From an uncultured SAR86 cluster bacterium (GTDB lineage: Bacteria; Pseudomonadota; Gammaproteobacteria; Magnimaribacterales; AG-339-G14): DNA of 64,000 nt. The translations under genes and the position numbers were made by a program. Below the pieces are notes generated by a model, which saw only the letters and a program-made list of their open reading frames with translations, ran no database searches and had not been told where the DNA came from. The stretch spans positions 37,145 to 101,144 of the forward strand of contig CACJRI010000004.1 in assembly GCA_902595715.1 (NCBI GenBank), in the 5' to 3' direction. Shown piece after piece: positions 35,497-39,372 of this stretch (position 1 is the stretch's first letter; each line of letters opens with the position of its first letter).

Positions 35497-35522
35497 AAAA
35501 AAGGGAGGCCCGAAAGCCTCCC
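35494..35522 (-). terminator. Intrinsic terminator of the YRG microprotein unit (hairpin probably shared with secF)
   Basis: GGGAGGC / GCCTCCC stem (35503-35509 / 35516-35522), then T8 on the minus strand. Confidence 0.85.
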
Positions 35523-35543
35523 TAAATTTTTACTATTCCTCAA

Positions 35544-35708
35544 TTAAGCAGAATGTTTTACACCACGGTAAATACCGTTTTGTAACTTTCCTGACTTATC
35601 TGATTCCATAGCATCATGCTTTACGCCTCTGTAAACACCAGGTTGAGTTGCTTGCTTCTCAACGTGAAGGTTGTTTTCAGTGACTTTGATACCTCTGTAA
35701 GTAGACAT
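35544..35708 (-). CDS. 54-aa YRG-repeat microprotein, DUF4278-like (absent from the ORF track)
   Basis: MSTYRGIKVTENNLHVEKQATQPGVYRGVKHDAMESDKSGKLQNGIYRGVKHSA*; GGAGG Shine-Dalgarno 6 nt upstream; three YRG[I/V]K repeats. Confidence 0.85.
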   Translation of the reverse strand: MSTYRGIKVTENNLHVEKQATQPGVYRGVKHDAMESDKSGKLQNGIYRGVKHSA

Positions 35709-35768
35709 ATCGCCTCCAGTTTTCGTTTCGATTATGTTTCATGTGCCTCACGGCATACACCCTCGTAA

Positions 35769-35904
35769 CGCGTTCCTTCGGTAGATATTCGGTCTCGTTC
35801 CCCATAAAAAGGTACTTGCTAGCCTTTCTACACATCGTGCAGAAAGAGGTTTTCCTATCTTCCTACTTCCGTTCAATGCACTAAAAAAGGGCACTGAATG
35901 AACG
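35769..35904 (-). ncRNA. Candidate glutamine riboswitch aptamer (glnA / Downstream-peptide class)
   Basis: P1 CGTTC(35904-35900)/GAACG(35775-35771); P2 TTCAGTGC/GCATTGAA; junction CGGAAGTA then GG; P3 GGAAGATA/TATCTACC (one A-A mismatch); 3' GAAGGAACGCG. Confidence 0.82.
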
Positions 35905-35914
35905 ATTAATGTGC

Positions 35915-35944
35915 ATTTTATCAAAAAAAATAACAGTTTGTAAA
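35915..35944 (-). promoter_or_regulatory. Sigma-70-like promoter for the riboswitch-YRG unit
   Basis: Minus strand TTTACA (35944-35939), 18-bp spacer, TAAAAT (35920-35915); predicted start just before aptamer P1. Confidence 0.6.
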
Positions 35945-37796: not shown

Positions 37797-38153
37797 ATGA
37801 AACTGTTAACAATAGTCGTTAAGCCGTCCAGATCCGATGGAGTTAGGCGTGCTTTATCAACCATTGGTACTGGTGGAGCTACTATCATTTCTGCTCAAGG
37901 TTTTGGAACCCAAAAGGGTCATTCCGAAACTTATCGTGGAGCAAGTTATGAAGTAGATACAAAACCTAAAACGATGTTTCAAGTAGCTTGTAAAGACGAT
38001 GACGTCGAAAACATCATCCGAGCCGTGCGAGAAGTCGCAAATACCGGCGAAATAGGTGATGGCAAGATATTCGTAACAGAACTTAACGATGTCGTTCGCA
38101 TCAGAACAGGTGAAACTGGTGAGGACGCAATAAAGGAGAATAGCAATGAGTGA
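37797..38153 (+). CDS. glnK: PII signalling protein GlnK
   Basis: GFGTQKGHSETYRGASYEV T-loop; NTGEIGDGKIFV; VVRIRTGETGEDAI. Confidence 0.93.
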   Translation: MKLLTIVVKPSRSDGVRRALSTIGTGGATIISAQGFGTQKGHSETYRGASYEVDTKPKTMFQVACKDDDVENIIRAVREVANTGEIGDGKIFVTELNDVVRIRTGETGEDAIKENSNE

Positions 38154-39372
38154 ATTAGAGTATGCTTTAAATACTTTTTATTTATTAATCTCTGGAGCCT
38201 TCGTAATGTGGATGGCTGCAGGATTTACCATGTTAGAAGCCGGTTTAGTTAGAGCTAAAAATGTATCAGAAATTGTTACAAAAAATTTAGGTCTTTACTC
38301 TATCGCATGTGTCATGTACCTAGTATGTGGCTTCTTTTTAATGTACCCAGGTGATAGCGTATACAACGCATACTTCCCTATGATTGGCAGTACTTGGGGT
38401 ATGTCTTTAGATGGCTTAACTTTCAATACCGATTTAGGTTATTCAGATGCTGCTGACTTTTTCTTTCAGGTAGTTTTCGTTGCAACAGCAATGTCAATTA
38501 TCTCTGGAGCAGTTGCAGAAAGAATGAAATTAATTCCATTTTTCTTATTTGCCATCGTCTTAACAGGCTTTATCTACCCAGTCCAAGGTTATTGGAAATG
38601 GGGTGGCGGTTGGTTAGACGCTATTGGCTATACTGATTTTGCAGGATCGGGTGTTGTCCACTTATGTGGTGCAGCTGCTGCTCTTGCTGCGGTAATTATT
38701 CTCGGTCCAAGATCTGGTAAATACGGTTCAGATGGATCCGTTAAAGTTATGAGAGGTTCAAACATTCCAATTGCAGCTTTAGGTGCACTAATCCTTTGGT
38801 TAGGTTGGTTCGGTTTCAACGGTGGTTCTCAATTAGCTGTCAACGATGCTGCAAATGCAAATGCTGTTGCTCAAGTCTTCCTAAACACAAATGCTGCTGC
38901 TGCAGGTGGTGTAATAGGTGCATTACTTATAGCTAAAGTTCTCACCGGTAAAGCGGATGTAACAATGGCTATTAACGGTGCTATTGCAGGACTAGTTGCT
39001 ATTACAGCGGCTCCTGACACTCCCTCAGGCGGATTAGCCACAATCATCGGATTTATTGGTGGAATAATTGTTTACTTCTCAGTGGTCTTTTTAGACACAG
39101 TTCTTAAAATTGACGACCCTGTTGGAGCAATTTCCGCTCACGGTACTGTTGGTATTTGGGGAATCATGGCGACACCACTGTCTGGTGCTGGAGCTTTTGG
39201 AACTCAAGCAATAGGAGCTATTTCAATCTTCCTTTGGGCTTTCATATGTACTGCAGGAACTTTGTTAGTGTTAAATGCGACCATAGGTCTAAGACCTTCA
39301 GAGGAAGAAGAAACTTCAGGACTAGATGCTTCAGAAATTGGAGTGGAGGCTTATCCTGAGTTTAAAGATTAA
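38146..39372 (+). CDS. amtB: Ammonium transporter
   Basis: FVMWMAAGFTMLEAGLVRAKN; GSGVVHLCG; HGTVGIWG. Confidence 0.95.
   Translation: MSELEYALNTFYLLISGAFVMWMAAGFTMLEAGLVRAKNVSEIVTKNLGLYSIACVMYLVCGFFLMYPGDSVYNAYFPMIGSTWGMSLDGLTFNTDLGYSDAADFFFQVVFVATAMSIISGAVAERMKLIPFFLFAIVLTGFIYPVQGYWKWGGGWLDAIGYTDFAGSGVVHLCGAAAALAAVIILGPRSGKYGSDGSVKVMRGSNIPIAALGALILWLGWFGFNGGSQLAVNDAANANAVAQVFLNTNAAAAGGVIGALLIAKVLTGKADVTMAINGAIAGLVAITAAPDTPSGGLATIIGFIGGIIVYFSVVFLDTVLKIDDPVGAISAHGTVGIWGIMATPLSGAGAFGTQAIGAISIFLWAFICTAGTLLVLNATIGLRPSEEEETSGLDASEIGVEAYPEFKD

Follow-up and report, generated by a model that had tools for sequence, protein, structure and literature searches.

Glutamine riboswitches were described in 2018 as restricted to cyanobacteria, and links to GS, PII and ammonium transporters were reported only from environmental, uncultured sequences (PMC6316151). 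Two types are modelled in Rfam, type 1 as RF01739 (glnA RNA) and type 2 as RF01704 (Downstream-peptide). According to the 2018 review, the main partners of glutamine aptamers in cyanobacteria are DUF4278 genes. The GS inactivating factor IF17 has DUF4278 as its N-terminal part, and in the riboswitches of gifB and of the Prochlorococcus DUF4278 gene PMM1846 glutamine raises expression (PMC6316151). Type 2 elements likewise precede small peptides, and DUF4278 proteins in picocyanobacteria (PMC6316151; PMC2864571). Glutamine riboswitches are also carried by the marine phages Melnitz, Mosig and AG-345-P14, and the Melnitz riboswitch lies in an ssrA region (PMC9004378).

The DNA analyzed here, referred to as the window, is a stretch of 64,000 nucleotides from an uncultured SAR86 cluster bacterium. 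SAR86 is an abundant heterotrophic lineage of the ocean. An earlier note on this DNA had proposed a candidate glutamine riboswitch in a gammaproteobacterial genome, and the proposal was supported by the Infernal search that the note had suggested: RF01739 matched positions 35906-35767 (minus strand) with 41.1 bits against a gathering threshold of 35 (cmscan; E-value 1.6e-5 for 64 kb x 4227 families, 2.2e-7 in a local search). All 20 related loci that were scanned also exceeded the gathering threshold of this model, in each case 5' of the same gene, and the aptamer was present by sequence pattern in all 36 related leaders, each time before the orthologous gene. Over the whole genome of the window RF01739 gave no match; its prefilter probably fails on the long P3 insert, because our own model R1 does find the element and scores it at 129.8 bits, with the window sequence in the R1 training set. 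The type 2 model RF01704, which the note had also named, found no match in the window in either the whole-window or the local Rfam search, and in this the element differs from the type 2 class.

The aptamer with its P3-nested domain occupies 35770-35904 (minus strand). As in RF01739, its core is a P1-P2-P3 junction with CGUUCAU (CGUUCA as counted around the three helices of the window element), CGGAAGUA and GAAGGAACGC, and a DUF4278 gene follows downstream as in cyanobacteria. It differs from the Rfam family in lying on a SAR86 gammaproteobacterial chromosome and in holding a nested domain of 68 nt within P3, at the position of a short hairpin in the Rfam consensus. The P1 strands, CGUUC at 35900-35904 and GAACG at 35771-35775, are invariant in 63/63 distinct nested elements; all five pairs are therefore uninformative on covariation. 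The P2 hairpin (35872-35898) has eight outer pairs, one of them G-U, and double changes were found in 7/8 of these pairs. The conserved J2/3 CGGAAGUA (35864-35871) consists of invariant columns and contributes the AGUA half of what we take, from general knowledge of the motif, to be a loop-E-like motif, the GAA half of which lies at 35779-35777. P3 including the nested domain extends over 35780-35863, with an outer stem (35863-35857 / 35786-35780) that covaries in an alignment of 48 sequences; double changes affect 4/6 pairs of the P3 stems.

The sequence and pairing of P1, P2 and P3 in the earlier note were all present at 35904-35771. Its P3 strands, first drawn as 35863-35856 and 35787-35780 with a 68-nt extension, do pair at 7/8 positions as letters, but the last A-U belongs to a conserved internal loop AGG/GAAU outside the covarying stem. 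The covariation that the note had asked for among relatives was detected in P2, P3 and both nested helices, P1 being silent for the reason given above. Sequence comparison confirms a genuine type 1 glutamine riboswitch in a lineage new to the class. The nested variant, with its conserved peptide cargo, is undescribed in Rfam and in the openly searchable literature, and L-glutamine is presumably the ligand, as membership in the family suggests.

Signals for expression surround the aptamer on the same strand. A sigma-70-like promoter at 35915-35944 (TTTACA, 18 nt, TAAAAT, with TG before the -10 box) was identified by pattern scan with 10/12 matches, a score that chance alone would be expected to give once in the region; relatives carry similar boxes at a similar place, and the start implied lies ~5 nt upstream of P1. 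Between aptamer and Shine-Dalgarno there is a conserved leader hairpin (35741-35760) with compensated stem variation (alignment columns 169-187), which is a candidate for the expression platform. The Shine-Dalgarno GGAGG (35713-35717) follows an invariant ACGAAAACUGGA stretch and precedes a 54-aa ORF (35544-35708), and an intrinsic terminator was found by pattern scan at 35502-35523. The earlier note had placed the element between secF and suhB; it does lie in this gap, but the gene it probably regulates is the 54-aa ORF, neither secF nor suhB.

We consider it quite probable that these parts form a glutamine-responsive unit that controls the YRG protein encoded by the ORF, with the P3 domain tuning the aptamer. 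Promoter, type 1 riboswitch, Shine-Dalgarno, the gene of the 54-aa DUF4278/YRG protein and terminator would together make a complete cis-regulatory unit, in which cellular L-glutamine would bind the P1-P2-P3 junction and lock P1, and the locking of P1 would alter ribosome access to GGAGG. The pattern scan found no terminator between aptamer and ORF, and control at the translational level would therefore fit. The YRG protein would most likely be switched ON at plentiful nitrogen, by analogy with gifB and PMM1846 in cyanobacteria. In thermodynamic folding, the mean accessibility of the Shine-Dalgarno over 24 leaders was 0.43 with the aptamer enforced and 0.43 otherwise, and the direction of switching is without support from folding because no consistent change appeared. 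The insert has an invariant CCUCU that might act as a direct anti-Shine-Dalgarno, but the folding test of Shine-Dalgarno release did not support such pairing. The nested P3 domain may tune or gate the aptamer, and the YRG protein may act on nitrogen uptake or assimilation.

The large P3 insert with its own hairpin, which the earlier note had recorded, turned out to be a conserved folded domain and not a spacer. It forms a nested three-way junction (35787-35856, minus strand) and ranks among the best conserved segments of the leader. In the window the order is AGG-AAAACC, Pa (35846-35824), G-NWAGCWA, AGUACC (35816-35811), Pb, GGGAACGAGACC (35802-35791) and GAAU. One pattern, in which Pa covaries, fits 63/63 distinct sequences from SAR86 and viral contigs: P3 stem, AGG or CUG, AAAACC, Pa, G-NWAGCWA, AGUACC, hairpin Pb, GGGAACGAGACC, GAAW and P3 3' strand. 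An automatic consensus fold of the whole leader missed P1 and P3, and the known aptamer structure was imposed and then tested. In the 48-sequence alignment, 94.5% of cells were paired and double changes were present in 19/30 pairs; the covariation score was 0.283 versus 0.116 after shuffling and at most 0.069 with the partners slid. Sliding the partners by 1-3 columns lowered pairing to 37-50%, a control that is partly favorable in that the structure was drawn from the same sequences, which does not affect the double changes in this way. Searched against all of Rfam, the insert belonged to no family, the sole match being a chance one of 9.5 bits (gathering 56), and the insert alone did not match RF01739. 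Absent from Rfam and unmentioned in the openly searchable literature, the nested domain is an undescribed, conserved RNA structure; nor is the nested-P3 form with a YRG peptide described in the accessible part of the phage study (PMC9004378).

What the insert does may be explained in several ways. The reading with the best standing, which comes close to an even chance, is that it is a structural extension of P3 that uses its loop-E-like motif to pack on the aptamer and increases affinity or the rate of folding, with no ligand of its own. Its place inside P3 appears obligate: the insert was within a glutamine aptamer in 94/94 true copies found by pattern and was never seen outside one, the other 12 pattern matches having no core and looking like chance. 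The loop-E-like motif in the insert and the lack of any Rfam relative agree with such a role. A structural extension alone leaves the tie to three-YRG proteins, described below, unexplained, although shared ancestry of the cassette could account for it.

It is possible, though rather doubtful, that the insert is a second independent aptamer, either for glutamine or for an opposing signal such as 2-oxoglutarate, which would make the element a two-input riboswitch by nesting. Its unpaired junction bases are nearly invariant across SAR86 and phages while its stems covary, as in ligand-binding RNAs, and it shares with the aptamer the form of a three-way junction with an AGUA/GAA loop-E-like motif on the second branch. 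In genera g14 and g17, moreover, a tandem pair of short-P3 aptamers takes the place of the nested aptamer before the same YRG gene, and the insert may thus stand in for a second sensor. Two-domain glutamine leaders are known as tandem glnA RNAs (PMC2864571), and tandem copies occur in g14, g17 and other SAR86 members; the window differs in that its second domain is nested in P3 and is not recognizable as a second copy of the aptamer. Against a second aptamer, the insert by itself resembles neither RF01739 nor another Rfam family, it is never found alone, unlike most aptamers, and tertiary packing would conserve the junction bases as well.

The probable target, the 54-aa ORF, carries three YRG motifs and matches DUF4278 (PF14105) narrowly, at 26.1 bits against a cut-off of 25.3, over residues 3-51. 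The RF01739 aptamer and the DUF4278 cargo therefore support each other independently. Orthologues were detected in 36/61 relatives and in 46/203 genomes of the order, and the three YRG triads are the only invariant columns among 40 aligned YRG proteins. No relative of the peptide was found among solved structures. The closest described case is Synechocystis gifB, which encodes IF17 and in which a type 1 aptamer also precedes a DUF4278 coding region (PMC6316151). IF17, however, adds an IF7-like GS-inhibiting part, whereas the SAR86 protein has three YRG repeats only, and the GS of the window genome is GlnII-like rather than GSI. The 54-aa protein is thus not an IF17, with DUF4278 at residues 3-51 only and no GSI match above cut-off in the window's family. 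Under viral short-P3 riboswitches, the peptides have 0 to 3 YRG motifs, down to a 17-mer with one. On viral contigs, which are not independent of one another, a three-YRG peptide follows 40/52 nested copies versus 2/75 short-P3 copies.

The nitrogen physiology of the window's family bears on both aptamer and protein. The genes glnK (PII) and amtB lie ~2 kb from the element at 37797-39372 (plus strand; PF00543, PF00909, TIGR03644), and synteny places the element no more than a few kb from glnK-amtB in several lineages. The AmtB (38146-39372) is above cut-off for NCBIfam TIGR03644, 'probable ammonium transporter, marine subtype'. The GlnII-like GS gene of the window genome stands beside ntrB and ntrC. 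GlnE was found in 0/37 genomes tested and GlnD in 0/23 genomes of the window's family, with positive E. coli controls for both; the genomes are incomplete and single absences of GlnD or GlnE mean little, but the pattern over 23 does count. Outside the family, GlnD was present in 9/14 genomes tested. Because GlnD is absent in 23/23 and GlnE in 37/37, the window's family is without a classical glutamine sensor, while it keeps PII, AmtB and NtrBC. A riboswitch serving as glutamine sensor where GlnD and GlnE are missing fits these data, and the fit is no proof; the element is a candidate sensor for this family and may be how SAR86 measures nitrogen supply. In the f2 genome G040, GlnD and the riboswitch occur together, so the absence of GlnD and the presence of the riboswitch are not strictly linked. 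Genome G013, which is fairly complete and belongs to the window's genus, has neither PII nor the YRG gene.

For the protein, a weak analogy suggests that YRG peptides could mimic the T-loop of PII, the arginines at YRG hairpin tips blocking the pores of trimeric AmtB, so that ammonium uptake would be shut off at high glutamine with no need of GlnD; we regard this as unlikely. GlnK blocks AmtB through Arg47, which sits in a YRG at the apex of the β-hairpin T-loop and enters the AmtB pores, with 31 Å between the three (PMC3198391; PMC6243067), and the PII T-loop in the window reads ETYRGASYE. The evidence for mimicry is circumstantial. The restriction of invariance to the YRG triads, the recurrent nearness to glnK-amtB and the presence of PII in 46/46 YRG-positive genomes of the order versus 119/157 others agree with it, the last association being confounded by descent. 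AlphaFold2 predicts three short hairpins with RG at the turn, but at low confidence (mean pLDDT 68, pTM 0.21). Among the window's proteins, a motif scan places the T-loop no higher than 5th, which is suggestive at best, the gene lies away from amtB in genera g2, g8, g14 and g17, and no precedent was found in the literature searched.

That the insert is a binding site of the basic YRG protein, allowing feedback on its own translation, is improbable. The strong association of the nested form with three-YRG peptides across phages and SAR86 and the small, Arg- and Lys-rich protein speak for such a site, but in four genomes (G059, G091, G092 and G097) the three-YRG gene follows tandem short-P3 aptamers that have no insert, and in a co-inherited cassette the association may reflect descent. 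We likewise give little chance to the full combination, in which the insert would be an independent ligand-sensing domain nested in the aptamer; the two-input switch so formed, in SAR86 and its T4-like phages, would drive a PII-T-loop-like peptide and replace GlnD/GlnE sensing.

The chromosomal, non-cyanobacterial setting pointed out in the earlier note holds throughout the SAR86 order. The note was right that the copy extends the class; the copy is not isolated but part of an order-wide set. Searching a named collection of 85,462 species with a DNA pattern derived from the insert retrieved 37 contigs; almost all of them are from SAR86 cluster bacterium, including one from the window's own genus. 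Nested elements (R1 above 115 bits) are present in 42 genomes of the SAR86 order, and some type 1 element was detected by R1 in at least 89/203. A class-wide gammaproteobacterial sample of 369 genomes yielded, under strict filters, only three matches, all within the SAR86 order, and 0 of ~365 genomes outside it matched. Short-P3 elements of SAR86 precede gltB, GlnII, a Gcw_chp porin-like gene plus amt, TonB receptors and a DUF4177-like protein, others precede several unnamed ORFs of 45-61 aa, and in one genome (G039) two tandem copies lie ~100 nt before GSI glnA. The SAR86 copies before gltB, GlnII, GSI glnA and the amt cluster are one likely source of the orphan environmental sequences. Among the SAR86-order riboswitches collected (loci L314-L350; gltB, GlnII, GSI glnA, amt cluster, TonB receptor and small ORFs), tandem arrangements are common and triple ones occur. 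On contig L103, binned as Halieaceae, a nested copy with a three-YRG ORF lies 2.9 kb from glnK-amtB; it may be an example beyond SAR86, or the contig may be misbinned.

Nested elements were further found on 57 marine viral contigs, mostly before a three-YRG peptide, and on some of these contigs genes of T4-like portal, protease and major head proteins adjoin the element. That the likeness to a glutamine riboswitch is chance, or decayed sequence without function, is hardly credible given conservation and covariation, which extend over 42 SAR86 genomes with nested elements and over the 57 viral contigs. The evidence on phages comes from IMG/VR contigs; in GenBank phage records neither the peptide nor the nested DNA was convincingly matched. 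The nested form resembles the riboswitches of Melnitz, Mosig and AG-345-P14 in being carried by marine phages. In a tree of aptamer and ORF, five SAR86 cassettes of the window's genus fall inside a clade of T4-like phage cassettes with 100/100 support. A subclade of this genus (L021-L026 and L082) carries the phage-like YRG cassette, and in L082 it occupies the same secF-suhB gap as the cassette of the window, where other members have the vertical cassette. The simplest reading of these sequences is that cassettes were probably exchanged between phages and SAR86, which suggests that those T4-like phages infect SAR86; the exchange would tie a group of T4-like marine phages to this lineage.

A contig binned as Flavobacteriales (L099) has a nested cassette that groups with the viral ones and is probably a phage contig. 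Marine viral type 1 riboswitches (L174-L250) precede many different short basic peptides without YRG, for example MDRFTFWCFQKLIKQHREKKINFLL. Unnamed ORFs of 45-61 aa stand under glutamine riboswitches at five SAR86 loci (L316, L317, L321, L327 and L338) and four viral ones (L185, L196, L215 and L242), and most such ORFs have no match in Pfam. One group of them, present in SAR86 and viruses, ends in NPFYP, and another ends in FFPYYL.
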